NCBI GenBank assembly: GCA_020434585.1
Contig: JAGRAN010000077.1
Span: 1-36,114, forward strand
DNA length: 36,114 nucleotides
Origin: Bdellovibrionales bacterium
GTDB taxonomy: Bacteria; Bdellovibrionota_C; UBA2361; SZUA-149; JAGRAN01
Direction of reading: 5' to 3'
Position 1 is the stretch's first letter. Each line of letters opens with the position of its first letter. This document shows, one piece after another, positions 27,150-36,064 of the stretch. The notes below the pieces were generated by a model that saw nothing but the letters and a program-made list of their open reading frames with translations, searched no databases and was not told the origin of the DNA. The position numbers and the translations under genes were made by a program.

Positions 27150-27583
27150 GCTTGCATTTTTATTCATACTACTTTAGATATATGTGAATATATACAGGAT
27201 TAGCACGCCTTTGGGCGGCGGCGCTGACTTATTCCCAATAAATTTAAGCTGTTAGCCGATTCGCAATCCAGTGGATTTTCGGATTTTTTTTATCGTTATG
27301 CCTTCCTGACGGCTCATAACGCGGGGAACACGGCTCTTTTCACTTTTCGTATTGGTAGAAGCAGACAGCGTCTCTCAAGCTGACTTAGGTGAGCTCGAGA
27401 GACAGCCGGCAAAATATCGCCAAGGTTTTGTTTTTATACTGTCTCAACATTGCCTCCAGAGCTCCGGCGCTGCGGGGATGTGAATCGCAACTCACTGCGT
27501 TTCACACCCCCGTAGCTCCACCGTAGGACCGGGAATCTCTGACCCCAACCAAGACTCCCGTTACGGGGAGCAGGAGGTAATAC
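27150..27583. other. 434-base intergenic region: left boundary of the putative cassette and structured leader
   Basis: There is no convincing gene here. The first part (to about 27430) is A+T-rich like the neighbouring genes and has a small inverted repeat (GTTATG at 27295-27300, CATAAC at 27315-27320). It also has a 12-position hairpin (27370-27381 with 27392-27403, one mismatch). The left copy of the 13-bp inverted repeat is at 27399-27411. From about 27445 the composition becomes G+C-rich and includes the long hairpin at 27466-27519. A second small hairpin (27555-27570) directly precedes the ribosome site AGGAGGT (27572-27578). Confidence 0.7.
27466..27519 (+). promoter_or_regulatory. Long imperfect hairpin in the leader of the DDAH-like gene
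   Basis: Arms 27466-27489 and 27496-27519 pair over 24 positions with three mismatches and one G-T wobble, loop ACTCAC. No T-run follows, so it is not an intrinsic terminator. It sits 65-118 bases before the start codon. It may be a cis-regulatory RNA, a protein-binding palindrome or part of a mobile-element end. Confidence 0.5.
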
Positions 27584-28477
27584 ATGCAACGCAAGACTGA
27601 TCTGCGGATCCTCGCCGTCGGACCTACGACGCGCGGAGATCAAACCTGGGAGCGCTGCTTCAATCCGGACGGAAGCGTCTGTCCGGAGCGAGTGCGTTCC
27701 CAATTCGTCGGGCTCTACACTTCGCTCAGCGGAGTAGAGCTCGTGATGCACGAGGGAGCCGGGGACGCTGTGTTCGCACAGGATCCTTGGACTCCGATCT
27801 ACACGCCCAACGGCACCGGTCGCCCGCGCGTCATGCTCAATCGCATGGGCGTCGCGAGTCGGTCCGGTGAAGCGGAGGCGCGTCTCGGCACACTGCGCCG
27901 ATTCTTCCGCGAGGACGAGATCCTGCGCATGCCCGAAGGTGCCATGCATGAGGGCGGCGACGTCATCATCGCGTGGTCCAACGAGCATCACTGCTGGGTC
28001 TACTTCGTCGGACGTCCGTGCAAGTCGAAGGGACGCACCAACCAGGCCGGCCGAGATGCACTGCGCGTCGCGGTCGAAGCCAACGGCAACCGCTTCGAGG
28101 AGGTGGACTTCAACGCCTGCTCGGCCAGCGGCGGTGCTCTGCATCTGTCGACCTGCTGCGGCTTCGCCGGTCCGAACTCGGACGGTGTGCTCCACGTCAT
28201 CGCCGGTCAGAACCAGCTCCTCGACACATCTCCGTTCGAGGCTCACGGCATCAAGGTGCTGTGGGCTCCGCGAGGTGAGGAGTGGGGATCGAACGTGCTG
28301 CGGCTTCCGATCCAGGACGCCCCGCTCAACGTCCAGTCGGGCTACGACGGGGTCGTTCGGGTGCTGATGGACAACGGCTACGACAACGTGCCGATGTCGA
28401 TCCTCAACTGGGACGAAGTGCGCAAGATCGACGGCTCGCTGACGTGCGCGCTCTGCGTCCTCCAGGTCGCGGGGTAG
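27584..28477 (+). CDS. Dimethylarginine dimethylaminohydrolase / arginine deiminase-like amidinohydrolase
   Basis: The 297-residue protein belongs to the guanidino-modifying superfamily (DDAH, arginine deiminase, amidinotransferases), which attack a guanidinium carbon with cysteine. Visible elements are VFAQDPWTPIYT (Asp67), MHEGGDVII (Glu123, Asp126), GRTNQAG, the catalytic His187 in LHLSTCC, and the nucleophile Cys288 in KIDGSLTCALCVL. The order and C-terminal Cys placement match DDAH best; the substrate may be methylarginine, arginine or another guanidino compound. The ribosome site (AGGAGGT, 6 bases from ATG) is much better than those of its neighbours. Codons mostly end in G or C, unlike the flanking genes. 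It lies tail-to-tail with argB, whose pathway makes arginine. Transfer from a high-G+C donor is likely. Confidence 0.82.
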   Translation: MQRKTDLRILAVGPTTRGDQTWERCFNPDGSVCPERVRSQFVGLYTSLSGVELVMHEGAGDAVFAQDPWTPIYTPNGTGRPRVMLNRMGVASRSGEAEARLGTLRRFFREDEILRMPEGAMHEGGDVIIAWSNEHHCWVYFVGRPCKSKGRTNQAGRDALRVAVEANGNRFEEVDFNACSASGGALHLSTCCGFAGPNSDGVLHVIAGQNQLLDTSPFEAHGIKVLWAPRGEEWGSNVLRLPIQDAPLNVQSGYDGVVRVLMDNGYDNVPMSILNWDEVRKIDGSLTCALCVLQVAG

Positions 28478-28655: not shown

Positions 28656-29564
28656 TTAGCTGTCTGTGAGCAGCAGGGTGCCGCAGCCTTCGTTCGTGAA
28701 AATTTCTTTTAGCAGCGAATCGGGAGTCAAGCCGTTGACAATGTGGGCTCTGGCAATTCCTCCTTCGAGCGCATCGATGCACGCCTGAACTTTCGGCATC
28801 ATCCCGCCTCCGATTGAACCGTCACGCACGAGCTGTCCAATCTCGGCGATGGTCAGCTGTGAGCAGAGAGAATCGGGATTCTTAACATCGCTCATTACGC
28901 CGTCCACGTTCGAAAGCAAAACGTATTTTTCTGCTTTGATTGCCCTAGCTAGAGCGGATGCAACGGTATCTGCGTTTATGTTAAGCACCTGTCCGTCAAC
29001 GTCAGCTGCAAGCGAACAAACCACAGGGATGTAATCTCCGGCCAGGAGCTGGCTCAGCACTTCGGTGTTAATTTCGACGATGTCACCGACAAAGCCGAAA
29101 TCTACATTCTTAGTTTCGCCCGTAGCTTGATCGACCAACTGAGTAAGTGGACGTTTTACGGCGGTTATCAAATTACCGTCAACACCGCTTAAACCCGCAG
29201 CGGGAGTGTGATGTTTGCGAAAAGCGGCGACTAAATTAGTGTTAACGGTGCCATTGAAGGTCATTTTCGCGACTTCAAGCATTGCTGCCGAGGTAATGCG
29301 TCGGCCGTTAATCTTTGGCGATTCAATGCCCAGACGCTCTGCGAGTTCCGTCGCCTGTGGTCCGCTGCCGTGAACTAAAACAATCTTAATTCCAACTTGA
29401 TAGAGCAAAGAAAGCTGTTCGATAATATTGTCGAGCGCAGTTTCGTTCGAGCAAATTTCTCCGCCCAGCTTAACTACAAATACCTTTCCTTTGTAAGCAC
29501 GAATATACGGCACCGCAGTTTTTAGCAGTCCAATGTCGAGCACGCTGTTTACTGAAGTCATCAT
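28656..29564 (-). CDS. argB: Acetylglutamate kinase
   Basis: ArgB phosphorylates N-acetylglutamate, the second step of arginine synthesis. The 302 residues show the amino-acid-kinase fold: KVFVVKLGGEI (phosphate loop), IVLVHGSGPQATEL (substrate glycine loop), AAGLSGVDGNLI, and the ATP-side LNINADTVASALARAI followed by YVLLSNVDGVM. GGGMMPKVQACIDAL is the conserved C-terminal Lys segment. The start is ATG 29564 (a second ATG follows at 29561), overlapping the stop of the second argR-like gene as ATGA. It is the last gene of the minus-strand arginine operon. Confidence 0.95.
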   Translation of the reverse strand: MMTSVNSVLDIGLLKTAVPYIRAYKGKVFVVKLGGEICSNETALDNIIEQLSLLYQVGIKIVLVHGSGPQATELAERLGIESPKINGRRITSAAMLEVAKMTFNGTVNTNLVAAFRKHHTPAAGLSGVDGNLITAVKRPLTQLVDQATGETKNVDFGFVGDIVEINTEVLSQLLAGDYIPVVCSLAADVDGQVLNINADTVASALARAIKAEKYVLLSNVDGVMSDVKNPDSLCSQLTIAEIGQLVRDGSIGGGMMPKVQACIDALEGGIARAHIVNGLTPDSLLKEIFTNEGCGTLLLTDS

Positions 29565-30016
29565 CGGCTGTAATCGCTCTCTAGCTTCTCAATCACTTTT
29601 AGGACTGTTTCGGCGCCCAGTCCTTCATCTACGCAAATAAACACAGTGTCGTCACCTGCGACAATGCCAAGCACACCCTCAATAACGCCGCGATCAAGCG
29701 CTGCAGCGACAACGTTGGCGTGACCTGGGGGAGTCTTGAGCACGATCATATTGCCCGAGGCTCGTCGGCTCGTGACATAATCTCGCATTACCTGAAGAAA
29801 CGAAGCACCTTCACGTGAACCATCGACGACAGTTGCATAGCGCACGTTGGCGCCGTCACGAATTAAAACCGCTCCCAAATCCTCAAGGTCGCAGTGAACA
29901 ACGAGCTCCGTGACGTTGTATCCGTTCTGGTTGAGTAAGGAGACTGCAGATTGCATCGAGTCAACTTTGCCGTCATCGATCAGCTTTTTTAGTGCTGCCT
30001 GCCGATCAATTTTCAT
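29561..30016 (-). CDS. ArgR paralogue with altered DNA-recognition helix
   Basis: The 151-residue product has ArgR architecture: an N-terminal winged-helix region (RQAALKKLIDDGKV ... GYNVT), a linker, and the C-terminal arginine-binding/hexamer domain with VLGIVAGDDTVFICV (GDDT at 121-124). In active ArgR the recognition helix carries Ser-Arg (here in the first copy, SISRD). In this copy the aligned residues are VVHCD (39-43), so both are lost. By analogy with Lactococcus, where ArgR and AhrC work together, it could form mixed hexamers and tune repression; that is inference. It overlaps argF and argB by ATGA on both sides and has a strong AGGAGG inside the end of argF. Confidence 0.85.
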   Translation of the reverse strand: MKIDRQAALKKLIDDGKVDSMQSAVSLLNQNGYNVTELVVHCDLEDLGAVLIRDGANVRYATVVDGSREGASFLQVMRDYVTSRRASGNMIVLKTPPGHANVVAAALDRGVIEGVLGIVAGDDTVFICVDEGLGAETVLKVIEKLESDYSR

Positions 30017-30981
30017 TTTTTTGTTCCTCCTGTTAGTGACGCGAGAGCCTCACATACTTCCGGAGACAGCATAAACAGAAACAAAGCTGCTGTGGCTGGA
30101 AGTCGGTTATGGGCTTGCGGAAAAACTCGAGACTGTTTGCCCTCAAATACCTCAGTGCTGATTTCTTCGTCGCGGTGAGCTGGGAGACAGTGAAGCGCAA
30201 TTGCCCCTGGCTTAGCAAGTTTCATCAGCTTTTGGTTTAGCTGGTAGGGTGCGAACACAGCACAGCGCTCGGCCTCTTGCCCTTCATCTCCCATCGAAGT
30301 CCAAACATCTGCATAAAGGGCGTCGGCATTTTCAGCTGCGGTCTGCGGATCCGCCTCAACTGTCACGCTTCCACCTGAGGCGGACGCGAGTTCCTGAGCT
30401 CTAGTCAGGACAGCTTCGTCGGGTGAGTAAGAATGAGGGCATGCCGCGACGACGTGCAGGCCAGCCATAGCACCAGCGAGCATCAGCGAGTGGCAGACGT
30501 TGTTGCCGTCTCCAAGATAAACCAGCTTGCGACCTTTGATGTCACCGTTCCATTCTTGATGCATCGTCAGCAAGTCAGCTAGAGCCTGTAGCGGATGAAA
30601 ACGCTCAGACAGTCCATTCACGACTGAAAGAGTATTTGGTTCAGCAAATTCTTCCAACAGGCTGTGGCGGTTCACCCTCGCCATCAACAGGCTTAGGTAA
30701 CCGCAGAGCACTCTTGCACTGTCTCCCGCGGTTTCGCCGCGGTGAAGCTGAAGGTCGTCTGCTCGAAGTTGCAGCGGGTGAGCTCCCAAATTTACCGAAG
30801 CGGTTTCTGCAGAGACGCGCGTGCGCAGCGAAGGCTTTTCGAAAAATAGGCCAATCGAGCTGCCGCTAAGCGCCCGTTTAACCGCGGTGGGTTTTACGGA
30901 GAGCTGTGCGGCGGCAGCGAGAACCAAGCGCTGCTCGGCAGGGGAAATGTCGTCGTCTCTGAGGAAATGCCGTGTTTTCAT
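30013..30981 (-). CDS. argF: Ornithine carbamoyltransferase
   Basis: ArgF transfers the carbamoyl group of carbamoyl phosphate to ornithine, giving citrulline. The 322 residues include the carbamoyl-phosphate loop FEKPSLRTR (residues 47-55; SLRT in place of the usual STRT), HPLQALADLL, GDGNNVCHSLM, DVWTSMGDE, and the ornithine loop HCLPAHRDEEI. The HCLPAHR form and absence of acetyl- or succinylornithine carbamoyltransferase features favour ordinary ornithine as substrate, so an acetylornithine deacetylase or ArgJ should exist elsewhere. It follows argD by 17 bases and overlaps the second argR-like gene by 4. Confidence 0.93.
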   Translation of the reverse strand: MKTRHFLRDDDISPAEQRLVLAAAAQLSVKPTAVKRALSGSSIGLFFEKPSLRTRVSAETASVNLGAHPLQLRADDLQLHRGETAGDSARVLCGYLSLLMARVNRHSLLEEFAEPNTLSVVNGLSERFHPLQALADLLTMHQEWNGDIKGRKLVYLGDGNNVCHSLMLAGAMAGLHVVAACPHSYSPDEAVLTRAQELASASGGSVTVEADPQTAAENADALYADVWTSMGDEGQEAERCAVFAPYQLNQKLMKLAKPGAIALHCLPAHRDEEISTEVFEGKQSRVFPQAHNRLPATAALFLFMLSPEVCEALASLTGGTKK

Positions 30982-30998: not shown

Positions 30999-32126
30999 CT
31001 ACAAGATCTCCTCTAGGGCGACCGCGAGCTGTTCGAAGTGTTCCTGCTCGACAATTAGCGGAGCCAAAATTCGTGCGACTTTCGGGTCATCGCTTGTTCC
31101 GATGAGAATGCCTCTGGCGCGGAGTTCGGCCACGATTGGTTTCGCATCCGCCTCAAATTTAATGCCGAGTAGGCAGCCTCGTCCTCTAACCTCCACGACG
31201 CCGTCAATCGCCGCGATGCGCTGTTTTGCAAATTCTGCAAGCTGGTAACCATGCGCGACAAGTCCTTCGGAAGAAATCGTGTCTAGCGTTGCTTCAAGGG
31301 CGGCCATTGCAAGCGGATTGCCGCCGAAGGTCGAACCGAGCTGTCCTAGGGTGATCTGACTCGCGATAGTGTCCCGCATCAGGACGGCTCCGACAGGGAA
31401 GCCAGAGGCCAGACTTTTTGCTGAAGTAGACATATCGGATTGAACTAGCTCGCTTCCAAGGTAGGGAACTCCGCAGCGTCCGACACCGGTCTGAACTTCA
31501 TCAAAAATAAGGATAATCCCGTGCTTGTCACAGGTTTCCCTCAGCGCCTGCAAATACTTTGGGTTTAGTTCAACCATTCCAGCCATGCTCTGTATTGGCT
31601 CAACGATTACCGCAGCCGTCTTGTCGGAGAGGGTACTCAATTCACTAACGACGTTTGGCGTAATGCGCGTAACAGGGCCAAACCATGGTCCAAGCTGTTC
31701 GTGCCAGGCGGCGTTATCAGTTGCTGCGGAGGCAATGCCAGTTCGTCCGTGAAATGCTCCTTTTAGCGCGGCAATCTCGAAACGCCCGGTGAGCTGCATG
31801 GCTAGCTTTAGCGCTGCCTCATTCGCTTCTGCTCCGGAATTGCAGAAGAAGACGCTTTCGAATTCTCCACCGGCAAACGCAATTAATTTGTCGGCTGCTC
31901 TTTCTCGTACTTCAAGTGGTGCAACGTTGGAGTAGAAAAATAGCGTGTTAGCCTGTTTGTTGATTGCGTCGATTACAGCAGTTGGCTGATGGCCCAGGAT
32001 TGATACGGCGTGCCCACCATATAAGTCTAAATACAATTTACCGGAGTCGTCTTGGACGAAGGGTCCTTCTCCCGAGGCGAGGGTAAATGGATAAGCCGCG
32101 TATGTCTTAGCCAGATGTGTTTTCAT
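30999..32126 (-). CDS. argD: Acetylornithine aminotransferase
   Basis: This is a class III PLP aminotransferase converting N-acetylglutamate semialdehyde to N-acetylornithine with glutamate. The 375 residues show YLDLYGGHAVSILGH, FFCNSGAEANEAALKLA, FHGRTGIASA, LIFDEVQTGVGRCG, the PLP lysine in SAKSLASGFPVGAV, and STFGGNPLAMAALEATL. The length is slightly short for the family but all core motifs are intact. The start ATG 32126 has GAGG at about 10 bases. LysJ-like enzymes of the LysW pathway look similar, so lysine use cannot be excluded, but the operon points to arginine. Confidence 0.93.
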   Translation of the reverse strand: MKTHLAKTYAAYPFTLASGEGPFVQDDSGKLYLDLYGGHAVSILGHQPTAVIDAINKQANTLFFYSNVAPLEVRERAADKLIAFAGGEFESVFFCNSGAEANEAALKLAMQLTGRFEIAALKGAFHGRTGIASAATDNAAWHEQLGPWFGPVTRITPNVVSELSTLSDKTAAVIVEPIQSMAGMVELNPKYLQALRETCDKHGIILIFDEVQTGVGRCGVPYLGSELVQSDMSTSAKSLASGFPVGAVLMRDTIASQITLGQLGSTFGGNPLAMAALEATLDTISSEGLVAHGYQLAEFAKQRIAAIDGVVEVRGRGCLLGIKFEADAKPIVAELRARGILIGTSDDPKVARILAPLIVEQEHFEQLAVALEEIL

Positions 32127-32138
32127 AGCTGGTGCGCC

Positions 32139-33182
32139 TCAACAAGGTCCGAGAGCCGGCTGCATCAATCCGGTTGTTTCTTCAAGTCCAAACATAAGAT
32201 TCATGTTTTGTATGGCGGCAGAGGCCATGCCTTTTCCCAAGTTGTCGATGGCTGCGCAAATAATTATTTGGTTGCCGCGGGCCGCACCTGAAATATCGCA
32301 AAAATTTGTACCGACTACTGGACCAATTTCAGGAAGTTCATGCAAAACGCGTATAAATGGCGAAGTGGAATAAAATTTCTCCAAATGTTCGATTAACGCC
32401 TGGCTAGTGATCTCATTTTCTAGCTGAGCGTGCACCGAAACAAAAATACCGCGCGCAATGGGCAGGCTCTGGGCCAGGAAGGACATTGGCGGAAGTTGGT
32501 TGGTGTAGGAAGGAGCGATAGCTTGCTTAAACTCGGGTTCATGCTGGTGGGCAAGGGGTTTATAGCCGCGGAAGTTACCGTGACGAGTTGGGTGATGAGT
32601 CGTTGACTTAGGCTCCTTGCCTGAGCCGGTTGAGCCAGTCTTTGCATCGACTGCGATTTGTCCAATTGGATCAAGACTGCCGATAGGCGCTGCCGCCAGC
32701 GCACTCGCCGTAGCTAGACAACCGGGATTTGCTAGGAGCGAGCAGCTTGAGATTTCATCGCGATAAAGCTCGGTCAGGCCATACTGGAATTTTTTTCTAA
32801 GCTCAGCAGCGATCGGAGACTTTGGGTAGAACTCGCTATGGAGCTCAAGGGACTTAAGACGCCAATCACCAGACAAGTCGATAACTTTGAATGTGTCGCT
32901 GTCCGTTTCCTCAAGCAGATTGATGATGGTCTGACCGCTGACTCCGTGCGGGAGAGCCGAAAAAATCACGGCTTGATCGTAAGAGCTCAACGCGCCAACA
33001 TTAACTTCTGTGTCGAATAAGTCACTGTAGAAGCCGTTTAAGTGAGGGTGAGCGTCGCAGATCTTGCCGGCTTCGCGTGACGTAACGCTGACGACATCTA
33101 TGTTTGGATGCAAAGCGCAAAGTCTAAGCAGTTCTCCTGCGCCGTATCCGGTTCCGCCTAAAATTCCTACACCAATTGCCAT
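32139..33182 (-). CDS. argC: N-acetyl-gamma-glutamyl-phosphate reductase, LysY/Bacteroidetes-type
   Basis: This enzyme reduces acylglutamyl phosphate to the semialdehyde with NADPH. It starts with the nucleotide motif GILGGTGYGAGELLRL. The active-site Cys155 lies in NPGCLATAS, where classic ArgC has GCYPT. The histidine region THHPTRHGNFRGYKP followed by HQHEPE (212-217) resembles Thermus LysY and Bacteroidetes ArgC more than enterobacterial ArgC. GTNFCDISG and AIDNLGKGMASAAIQNMN close the catalytic domain. The length is 347 residues. It begins 2 bases after the P-loop gene and ends 12 bases before argD. Confidence 0.92.
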   Translation of the reverse strand: MAIGVGILGGTGYGAGELLRLCALHPNIDVVSVTSREAGKICDAHPHLNGFYSDLFDTEVNVGALSSYDQAVIFSALPHGVSGQTIINLLEETDSDTFKVIDLSGDWRLKSLELHSEFYPKSPIAAELRKKFQYGLTELYRDEISSCSLLANPGCLATASALAAAPIGSLDPIGQIAVDAKTGSTGSGKEPKSTTHHPTRHGNFRGYKPLAHQHEPEFKQAIAPSYTNQLPPMSFLAQSLPIARGIFVSVHAQLENEITSQALIEHLEKFYSTSPFIRVLHELPEIGPVVGTNFCDISGAARGNQIIICAAIDNLGKGMASAAIQNMNLMFGLEETTGLMQPALGPC

Positions 33183-33184
33183 AT

Positions 33185-34234
33185 CTACTTTTCTACAAAG
33201 TTAACGATGAAATTTCCGAGTTTCTCGGGGTCCAGTCGGGCATTAATTGCTTCAATGCCAAGGTTTTTTGCGACAAAGTCAGTGCCCGCGCTGTTGTCTG
33301 TTACCGGTCCGCTGACAACATCGACTTGCAAATCAAATTTCTCTTCGAGAAATTTCTTGCCGCCCCATGTTCCCACGGGGTCTGCAGCGCAGAGTATCAA
33401 AGCAGCTTTGCGGGCCATTAAGTCGCTGCTGCTGAGAATTTCCTGTACGCCGTAGGTTCCCATGATACCGTCGCCCAGTTCCGCTACGATAATCTCTGCG
33501 CCGTTTTCAATCAGGTGAGCGAAAATGTTTTTAGTAGTCTGTACCGCGCATTCACCGCTAGTGGTGACAATGCCTGCGTCGACGAAGGATGCGGCGGGTG
33601 CTGCACCGAAATCCTGCATTTCTAGCAGGTCGCGCTGCAGGGAAACCCCAGTCAGCTTGCAGCCGCCGACCTTCTTGCCGGTCTTGGCTATTGCGCGAAC
33701 GAGCTCGCAGGCGACGCGGGTTTTTCCGCTGTTCATGCATGTACCCGCGATGTAAACAATTGGGACAGGTTTGTATTCAGAGAAATTCTTAGCAGCGGGG
33801 AGAGCTCCTTGCGAAACGTGCGCTGGAATTCCGGAACGGCTGCCGAACTCGGGAAACACCAAAACAGATCCCAGAATTTCTACGTCAAACGGCTTGCCGA
33901 AGTCGGGGTTATTCGACGTGCATTTGCCGATTACCCCGCCGGTATTCAGTACCTGGAGCGTATCTCCGACCGCAACGCTTTGCGGCACAACTCCGGCGTA
34001 GCCATGAAGAGCGTTACGCTTTCGGAGAACACCGACAATGATATCGCCTTCGTGTAGGGTGACGAATCGACCGCTGCGGTCCTCAAGCTTGTCATACACA
34101 GCTTTATTGTGAAGGACTTTAGCGGCAACGACGTAGCCTTCTTCTGCGGTTATTTCATCTTGAACGCGCAAATCGCGTTTAAGCGGAACGTTCTTGGTGC
34201 TGGACGCAATTTTATTGGCAATTACTCTTTTCAT
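33185..34234 (-). CDS. P-loop NTPase of unknown function embedded in the arginine operon
   Basis: The 349-residue product has two parts. Residues about 20-130 are beta-rich (GRFVTLHEGDIIVGVL, VGDTLQVLNTGGVIGK), perhaps a barrel. From about 157 a nucleotide-binding domain begins with the P-loop GTCMNSGKT (164-172), followed by helix VACELVRAIAKTG, strand-turn VGGCKLTGVS, and an acidic Walker-B-like strand IIVAELGDG (248-256). The layout recalls the dethiobiotin synthetase/MobB/DUF1611 group. One DUF1611 protein, DgcN, was reported to acetylate D-glutamate. The gene overlaps argR by 4 bases and is 2 bases from argC, so it belongs to the operon, where no argA or argJ is seen. An acetylglutamate-related or other arginine role is possible but unproven. 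Confidence 0.75.
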   Translation of the reverse strand: MKRVIANKIASSTKNVPLKRDLRVQDEITAEEGYVVAAKVLHNKAVYDKLEDRSGRFVTLHEGDIIVGVLRKRNALHGYAGVVPQSVAVGDTLQVLNTGGVIGKCTSNNPDFGKPFDVEILGSVLVFPEFGSRSGIPAHVSQGALPAAKNFSEYKPVPIVYIAGTCMNSGKTRVACELVRAIAKTGKKVGGCKLTGVSLQRDLLEMQDFGAAPAASFVDAGIVTTSGECAVQTTKNIFAHLIENGAEIIVAELGDGIMGTYGVQEILSSSDLMARKAALILCAADPVGTWGGKKFLEEKFDLQVDVVSGPVTDNSAGTDFVAKNLGIEAINARLDPEKLGNFIVNFVEK

Positions 34235-34683
34235 GATGGAAACTCTGCGCCGGGAAGGGCTGCGTGTTTTAGGTGGTTGGCAATTTGTGCTTGAGCAGAC
34301 TTACTGCCTGTCGCAATGAATATAGTGTCGTCTCCCGCAACGGTTCCAACGATGCCGTCAAGGTCCATGTCATCAATCGCGGCGGCTACAACAGCAGCAG
34401 CTCCGACCTTAGTTCTGACAACAAGCATGTGTGGTCCGGCTGGAGCGACCGAGTGAATCATGATCGCCGCGCCGCTGCTCTCCGCGCTTGTAAAGCTGCC
34501 TGCTGGGATGTATTTTCCAGAGAGCTTTACTACTCCCAGTTCTTTGAAGTCCCGGCTGATGCTGGGCTGGGTTACGGCGAAGCCCTGGCGCTGCATAGCT
34601 TCAACGATGTCGGCCTGACTGAAAAAATTGTTTTGTTCCAGTAGGTTAACCAGCGCTTCTTGTCTTTTTTGCTTCTCTTCCAT
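34231..34683 (-). CDS. argR: Arginine repressor
   Basis: This is a 150-residue transcription factor with N-terminal winged helix and C-terminal hexamer domain. The recognition helix is intact ([18 protein letters not shown], Ser-Arg at 43-44). The arginine-binding motif is present as [14 protein letters not shown] (GDDT 117-120). It is the first gene of the minus-strand arginine operon, divergent from argG, with ARG-box-like sites just upstream. It is therefore likely to repress both itself with its operon and argG when arginine is abundant. The next gene overlaps it by ATGA. Confidence 0.93.
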
Positions 34684-34694
34684 CGCTCTGTTTC

Positions 34695-34708
34695 TACATA
34701 TTTATTCA
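34695..34708. promoter_or_regulatory. ARG-box-like operator 1
   Basis: The 14-mer TACATATTTATTCA fits the ARG box pattern TGNATWWWWATNCA with one mismatch. Its centre is 32 bases from that of the second box, close to three helix turns, so ArgR could bind both on one face. Confidence 0.5.
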
Positions 34709-34725
34709 ATTTGGCTGCGGAATAT

Positions 34726-34754
34726 TTGCATAGTTATGCAAAATCGGGTAAATA
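34726..34754 (+). promoter_or_regulatory. Candidate argG promoter
   Basis: TTGCAT (34726-34731) and TAAATA (34749-34754) are separated by 17 bases. ARG box 2 covers the -35 and part of the spacer, as expected for repression. The -10 is only moderate. Confidence 0.35.
34727..34740. promoter_or_regulatory. ARG-box-like operator 2
   Basis: TGCATAGTTATGCA is a palindrome with perfect 6-bp arms. It matches TGNATWWWWATNCA at all fixed positions, with one G in the central A/T part. It lies between argR and argG. Confidence 0.65.
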
Positions 34755-34831
34755 GTCAAGCCGATGAAGCGCAGCGGCGGTCTTCAGTTAAAGATTTTCA
34801 AAATGCAGCCTTGATGAGGAACAGAAGGAAA

Positions 34832-36064
34832 ATGGAAAAAGTAGTTTTAGCATACAGCGGCGGTCTCGATACTTCGGTCATCGCAAAGTGGCTGATTGAA
34901 AAAGGCTACGAAGTCATTGCGTATGTAGCGGACGTTGGACAGCAGGAAGATTTCGAAGAAATCAAAGATAAGGCTCTGGCAGTCGGCTGCTCTAAGGTCT
35001 TCGTCGAGGACCTCAAGGAAGAATTTGTTACTGACTACATCTTTACTGCGCTCAAAGGGTCGGCGATGTATGAAGGACGCTACCTGCTGGGAACCTCAAT
35101 CGCGCGTCCGATTATCGCGAAACGTCAGGTTGAAATCGCGAAAAAAGAAGGCGCAAACGCAGTCGCCCACGGCGCGACCGGCAAGGGTAATGACCAAGTG
35201 CGTTTTGAACTTTCCTGCTACGCGCTAATGCCCACAGTTAAGGTAATAGCACCTTGGAAGGACCCTGAGTTTTTGGCGCAGTTTAAAGGTAGAACTGACC
35301 TGCTGAACTACGCTGAAAAGCATGGAATTCCCGTCGAAGCCACTAAGAAAGCGCCTTACAGCATGGACGCCAACTTAATGCATATCAGCTACGAAGCTGG
35401 AATTCTCGAAGATCCGAAAATGTCTCCTCCGCAGGATATGTTTAAGATGACCAAGAGCCCTCAGGATGCTCCGGACAAAGGAACTAATCTCGCGATTCAC
35501 TTTAAGGACGGTCTACCAACAAAGGTCGTTAACCAGGACAGTGGCAAAACTGTTGAAAAGCCGCTTGAGCTTTTCATGTACCTCAACGAAGTTGCCGGTG
35601 AGAACGGCGTTGGTCGAATCGACATCGTTGAGAACCGCTACGTTGGCATCAAGTCGCGTGGCGTTTATGAAACTCCGGGTGGAACAGTCCTCTGGAAGGC
35701 GCACCAAGATCTAGAAACGATCGCGATGGATAAGGAAGTTTTCCGCTTAAAGGAAAGCCTCATGCCGCGTTTTGCAGAGCTAATTTACAACGGCTACTGG
35801 TTCTCGCCGGAAATGGATTTTCTCGTAGCTGCGTTTAACAAGAGCCAGGAAGCAGTTAACGGTGTCGTTTACCTCCAACTCTATAAAGGCAATGTAACCG
35901 TTATTGGCCGTGAGTCCGAGAGCTCCCTCTATGATCCAGAACTATCGTCGATGGACATCGAAGGCGGTTATAACCAGAAGGACGCAGAGGGCTTCATTAA
36001 GATTAACGCCATTAGGCTAAAAGCTCACAACGTTATTCTTAAAAAGGTCGGCATTACTCAATAG
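34832..36064 (+). CDS. argG: Argininosuccinate synthase
   Basis: ArgG joins citrulline and aspartate using ATP to form argininosuccinate. The 410 residues start with the PP-loop AYSGGLDTS (7-15). They contain [33 protein letters not shown] and [10 protein letters not shown], and end with the conserved [18 protein letters not shown]. The reading frame extends upstream to 34628, but that part overlaps argR and its operators. ATG 34832 is preceded by AAGGAA and GAGGA and matches the family start; ATG 34814 is possible. It is divergent from the arginine operon and probably under the same ArgR control. argH is not in the window. Confidence 0.96.

Follow-up and report, generated by a model that had tools for sequence, protein, structure and literature searches.

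The arginine operon of a Bdellovibrionales bacterium raises a simple question: Which of its products supplies the N-acylglutamate that ArgB, ArgC, and ArgD process? The window analysed here, namely the whole stretch of 36,114 nucleotides (GCA_020434585.1, contig JAGRAN010000077.1, positions 1-36,114, from the genome designated G000), contains argB, argC, argD, argF, and argG without argA or argJ, as the original prediction for this DNA had stated, and ArgJ (PF01960) has zero matches across the whole genome as well. A gap at the first step is known from genomes otherwise apparently able to make arginine, and the published fillings are GNAT proteins and ArgJ (PMC3827942; PMC7311316). Between argR and argC lies a gene, called X hereafter, which in our judgment encodes, with a probability of about 0.55, a non-homologous N-acyl-L-glutamate synthase replacing ArgA and ArgJ as the committing enzyme of the pathway.

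Judged by its conservation, X is a real gene, and it is the operon member that it was first taken for: its 4-base overlap with argR and the 2-base gap to argC were confirmed, within the minus-strand order argR, X, argC, argD, argF, a second ArgR-like gene, and argB, with argG divergent (table 1). Compared with the copy in a congener, it shows 87-88% protein identity and 73.6% DNA identity, with a dN of 0.089; because the protein has been kept to this extent while synonymous sites are saturated, X is judged to be under strong purifying selection, and it diverges less than argC and argD in the same comparison. Orthologs from four further families of the window's class are 49-57% identical to it. 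The genome has another set of argC and argB relatives, which was ruled out as an arginine set since its LysX (328 bits) and LysW-lysine hydrolase (380 bits) identify a LysW-type lysine cluster; this cluster, at L153:10138-15202 (+) (G000:C14), encodes LysX, the hydrolase, and argC-like, argB-like, and argD-like proteins.

Table 1. Features of the arginine locus, of gene X, and of the A5-type GNATs elsewhere in the same genome
Feature	Position	Strand	Basis
Gene X, candidate N-acyl-L-glutamate (N-succinyl/N-acetylglutamate) synthase, 349 aa	33185..34234	-	ORF and translation, ATG start, ortholog alignments
X N-terminal domain, residues 1-155, fold unmatched in Pfam/NCBIfam/PDB	33770..34234	-	Conservation
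X C-terminal P-loop domain, residues 156-349, BioD/DUF1611/CbiA-like	33188..33769	-	hhalign; PDB profile matches
X Walker A GTCMNSGKT, residues 164-172	33719..33745	-	G(T/A)xMxxGK(T/S) conserved among orthologs
X K193, profile-aligned with the conserved Lys after the dethiobiotin synthetase P-loop helix	33656..33658	-	HMMER alignment
X ELGDG, residues 252-256, candidate Walker B/acidic catalytic motif	33467..33481	-	Aligns with DUF1611 EGQG
argR, arginine repressor, first operon gene	34231..34683	-	Pfam and NCBIfam; 4-base overlap with X
argC, N-acyl-gamma-glutamyl-phosphate reductase	32139..33182	-	TIGR01850, 312 bits, over cutoff; 2-base gap to X
argD, aminotransferase	30999..32126	-	TIGR00707 and Pfam
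argF, canonical ornithine carbamoyltransferase (window genus)	30013..30981	-	TIGR00658, 334 bits, over cutoff
Second ArgR-like gene, between argF and argB	29561..30016	-	PF02863 and PF01316
argB, N-acylglutamate kinase	28656..29564	-	TIGR00761, 237 bits, over cutoff
argG, divergent; true start inside this open frame	34628..36064	+	94.9% identity over 410 aa to congener ORF; argG matches in relatives
Pair of ARG-box-like sites in the argR-argG interval: 34695-34708, and a palindrome at 34725-34742	34695..34742		Pattern and inverted-repeat searches
A5-type GNAT, ~186 aa, Cys-rich C-terminal end	L175:2071-2769 (G000:C27)	-
A5-type GNAT, ~186 aa, Cys-rich C-terminal end	L181:2080-2640 (G000:C56)	-

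To which protein family does X belong? It had been described as a P-loop protein with a domain similar to BioD or DUF1611, to be checked by a profile search for DUF1611 or AAA_26, and in that search the window protein fell below every cutoff. No Pfam or NCBIfam model was reached, the sub-threshold matches (CbiA, AAA_26, bioD) all lying on the P-loop, with 13.5 bits for NCBIfam bioD (cutoff 83) and 12.5 bits for AAA_26 (cutoff 27). Membership in DUF1611 (PF07755) was rejected: against a Pfam gathering cutoff of 25 bits, the window protein had no match at E<=1 and its orthologs scored 12.6-23.2 bits by hmmscan, only that of genome G072 reaching 25.0 when neighbouring stretches were added. What stands of the earlier description is the distant likeness of the C-terminal domain, which matches dethiobiotin synthetases in a PDB profile search (E 3.6e-5). 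In profile-profile comparison, X aligns with BioD over 51 columns (E 5e-7) and with DUF1611 over ~170 columns (E 4e-5 to 2e-4), the latter restricted to residues 154-349, while BioD and DUF1611 align with each other at E 1.3e-5; because of these mutual values, X is placed near both families and inside neither, its P-loop domain resembling dethiobiotin synthetase at least as closely as DUF1611. The N-terminal domain differs from that of DUF1611 proteins and matched nothing in Pfam, NCBIfam, or PDB. Neither library found a GNAT or ArgJ domain in X, which was accordingly rejected as a member of the ArgA/S-NAGS or ArgJ families.

The conserved Walker A and the profile matches would place X among P-loop NTPases of the BioD/CbiA-like class; a structure prediction made from two sequences, those of the window and L017, yielded no usable fold (mean pLDDT 32.5). 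Across 24 family members, E51, R73, G100, G103, G170, K171, K193, D202, T225, E252, and D255 are invariant or nearly so; E51, G100, G103, and E252 belong to the former group and R73, K193, and D255 to the latter. The N-terminal domain is present also in a larger set of distant paralogs (E 2e-50 and 3e-34), among which are the full-length proteins at L025:13193-14278 (-), L031:9200-10339 (+), L029:2947-4137 (+), and L081:9393-10409 (-), all without a Pfam family. Genes for such paralogs adjoin one for an asparaginase_2 protein in G019 and one for a carbon-nitrogen hydrolase in G001, a hint that the family at large may carry out amide chemistry.

X is new to the two family libraries used and is tied to arginine synthesis across distant lineages. 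Full-length orthologs occur in 8 of the 46 genomes of the window's class (G000, G001, G007, G016, G023, G027, G028, and G040) and in six genomes outside it (G072, G224, G142, G308, G172, and G197), a spread well beyond the class that could not have been foreseen from the window. One scan of genome contigs found a relative in the congener only, and a scan of viral contigs found none, whereas a search around G072 returned 53 carriers from its family, distributed over five genera, with genomes of 9-13.6 Mb and a G+C of ~0.71 in the stretches read. The proposed check for the same gene before argC in related genomes gave a uniform result, X lying directly before argC in all 35 genomes read, i.e. 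the 14 diverse carriers, 19 of one family, and 2 others. The order argR-X-argC-argD-argF'-argB prevails in much of the window's class, while G308 and G172 have argR-X-argC-argD-argB, G224 has X-argC-argB-M20-argG-argH, and G197 a compact X-argC-argF'-argB. G072 and its family combine argF'-argB-M20-argH-argG-X-argC in one run, which covers all steps after N-acylglutamate except argD, with argR divergent and several genes away. The most complete picture comes from G028 and G023, in which the prevailing order is accompanied by a divergent argG-argH-M20 run. The two runs then account for each step from N-acylglutamate to arginine, leaving the first step as the only one that lacks a gene and X as the only gene that lacks a role.

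The enzymes known for that step are distributed in a nearly complementary manner. Counted in incomplete draft assemblies, 34 of the 46 class genomes are argC-positive, 8 with X and 26 without. ArgJ is found in 26 of the 46 class genomes but in no carrier of X; likewise, only class genomes without X have AAK-GNAT ArgA-like proteins or short S-NAGS GNATs. At least one of these three enzymes is found in 25 of the 26 other argC-positive genomes versus 0 of the 8 carriers (Fisher p=5e-7, a value that ignores relatedness); for ArgJ alone among the 34 genomes, p = 2.7e-5 with the same disregard of relatedness. The exception, G024, has neither X nor any of the three, and its only strong argC lies in a LysW-like cluster. 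X and ArgJ alternate even inside one order and inside the family f15. Hence, the search for argA and argJ in relatives carrying X, also suggested with the original prediction, found both absent from all eight class carriers. Outside the class, ArgJ is absent from five of the six carriers, with G142 having both X and ArgJ. The search for alternative synthases covered ArgJ, AAK-GNAT ArgA, S-NAGS, and the A5-type GNATs considered below; weak GNAT matches in G072 and G142 were set aside because they look like ArsN2-type proteins of arsenic resistance, the G072 copy being fused to an arsenate-reductase-like part. Linkage to an arginine operon and replacement of ArgA and ArgJ, the marks by which we would recognize an N-acylglutamate synthase, are thus both seen for X, apart from G142 with its ArgJ and the carriers of A5-type GNATs.

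The position occupied by X is informative in sister genomes too. In eight genomes of family f13, an S-NAGS-type GNAT of 128-147 aa lies directly before argC, where the carriers have X, and G045 has the same arrangement. Examples of this short GNAT before argC are found at L155, L164, L166, and L172, sometimes overlapping argC. In the argC tree, 15 genes linked to ArgJ or S-NAGS form a supported clade (99/97) around which seven X-linked argC of the class branch, all inside one group of 22 (100/99). The topology would be explained simply if X had given way to a GNAT synthase in the slot before argC.

Which acyl group would X attach? Acetylornithine and succinylornithine transcarbamylases (AOTCase and SOTCase) differ at positions 92, 185, and 302, with Glu, Asn, and Lys in the former versus A/S/P/V/Q, Pro, and V/I/E in the latter (PMC4581275). 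The transcarbamylases of X operons outside the window genus, which exceed the acetylornithine carbamoyltransferase cutoff where checked, have Pro185 in all 13 cases inspected, A, P, or V at position 92 in 12 of the 13 (T in the other, Glu92 in none), and V, I, or E at position 302 in 11 (K in two). These residues are of the SOTCase type and make it probable that X operons outside the window genus run on succinylated intermediates. The ArgF of the window is instead a canonical OTCase, so in the window genus deacylation has to take place at the level of ornithine. The acetylglutamate supply envisaged in the original prediction is the best supported of its options as to role, given the linkage to argC, the exclusion of ArgJ, ArgA, and S-NAGS, and the GNAT in the same slot, and the regulatory and ligase roles no longer look equally open; the product, however, is more likely to be N-succinylglutamate.

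In mechanistic terms, X would acylate L-glutamate at its amino nitrogen, probably with succinyl in most carriers, because their operons have a transcarbamylase of the N-succinylornithine type, and with either succinyl or acetyl in the window genus, after which ArgB, ArgC, and ArgD would process the product. In BioD, CbiA, and formyl-THF synthetase, P-loop proteins of this class, ATP activates an acid that is then attacked by a nitrogen. By analogy, we infer with odds little better than even that the P-loop domain of X uses ATP to turn the acid into an acyl phosphate, for glutamate to attack. The alternative donor would be acyl-CoA, in a transfer like that of DgcN; CoA keeps its place as a candidate because this DUF1611 protein of D-glutamate catabolism reportedly acetylates D-glutamate. 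The fuller proposal, an ATP-dependent glutamate:succinate (or acetate) ligase that works from free acid and ATP instead of acyl-CoA in several distant lineages, is tentative and rather doubtful.

The main reason for holding confidence in X as the synthase near one half is that the window genome also has A5-type GNATs. Two copies are found in G000, two in G001, and others in G028 and G040, hence in 4 of the 14 carriers checked; G019 has one as well, between argG and argH (L186, G019:C35). Their Cys-rich C-terminal signature presumably resembles that of the BT3761 and Cabys_1732 synthases, and these proteins may well make N-acylglutamate; the X of the window could then be one of two suppliers, or serve some other task. 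Also counted against X as synthase are the OTCase of the window lineage, for which no deacylase has been assigned there, and the ArgJ of G142. On this basis, X might act elsewhere in the acylated pathway, as an accessory subunit or an activity needed by ArgC or ArgB, with a GNAT outside the operon as the synthase, and its invariable contact with argC could mean a physical partnership. We consider this unlikely, since the other 10 carriers have no A5-type GNAT, no GNAT of ArgA or S-NAGS grade, and, G142 excepted, no ArgJ, while X is missing from those class genomes that use the standard pathway, whose other steps thus do not need it.

A nucleotide-dependent regulator of the operon, sensing for example energy or glutamate and acting with ArgR, would suit a P-loop protein encoded between argR and argC. 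Such a role is nevertheless improbable: X has no DNA-binding domain that we could find, argR is distant from it in the G072 family and was not seen next to it in G142 and G197, linkage to argC persisting in all of these, and the absence of ArgJ and ArgA would be left without explanation. The neighbours of the distant paralogs suggest another possibility, an amide or peptide ligase drawing on intermediates of the arginine pathway in a side branch, but across distant lineages X itself keeps to the core operon, also in the compact form of G197, and we give this alternative little credence.

Seen as a synthase, X resembles several known systems in part only. With BioD and ATP-dependent ligase domains (AAA_26, CbiA), which give the best E-value, it shares the P-loop, GxxxxGKT, and a conserved Lys ~20 residues on, but the likeness spans only ~50 residues, X has an additional N-terminal domain of 155 residues, and no bio genes lie nearby. 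With DUF1611 and DgcN it shares size, a P-loop domain near the middle, and ~170 alignable C-terminal residues (E about 4e-5), yet it differs in the respects given above, and true DUF1611 genes exist separately from X in G007 and G142. The GNAT N-acylglutamate synthases (ArgA, S-NAGS, Cg3035, BT3761/Cabys_1732) have the reaction predicted for X and its place in the operon, in a GNAT fold without sequence relation to X by Pfam or NCBIfam. ArgJ, the ornithine acetyltransferase, supplies N-acetylglutamate when bifunctional, as predicted for X, but belongs to an unrelated family that co-occurs with X in 1 of 14 genomes checked. PMC12363236 mentions the DgcN pathway of D-glutamate catabolism, and the arginine genes of C. 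abyssi are arranged as argAGCBEH (PMC5317091). The succinylated pathway of Bacteroidetes has, like the X operons, an SOTCase-type transcarbamylase, an M20 deacylase, and argG/argH, with the GNAT BT3761 as first enzyme (PMC7311316) in the place proposed here for X. If X is the synthase, an unrelated solution would close the first-step gap for a whole myxobacterial-like family and several uncultured lineages, the succinylated pathway would extend beyond Bacteroidetes, and a family without Pfam or NCBIfam name would gain a function, with a lead on its many distant paralogs. If it is also an ATP ligase, the first step would start from free acid and ATP, in a family new to the arginine pathway.

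Some observations concern regulation in the window. The second ArgR-like gene, between argF and argB, was overlooked in the original prediction; its product has a strong C-terminal domain and a weak DNA-binding domain (30.2 bits versus a cutoff of 27), and the X operons read in other carriers did not show such a gene, the congener contig stopping before that point. The ARG-box-like sites between argR and argG are no more than suggestive, since the pattern is not commoner in the window than expected by chance. Convergent with the operon lies an open frame at 27584-28477 (+), which has only weak likeness to dimethylargininase-type enzymes and no Pfam match; a further ARG-box-like site, with 1 mismatch, is present at 27153-27166, ~420 bases upstream of it.
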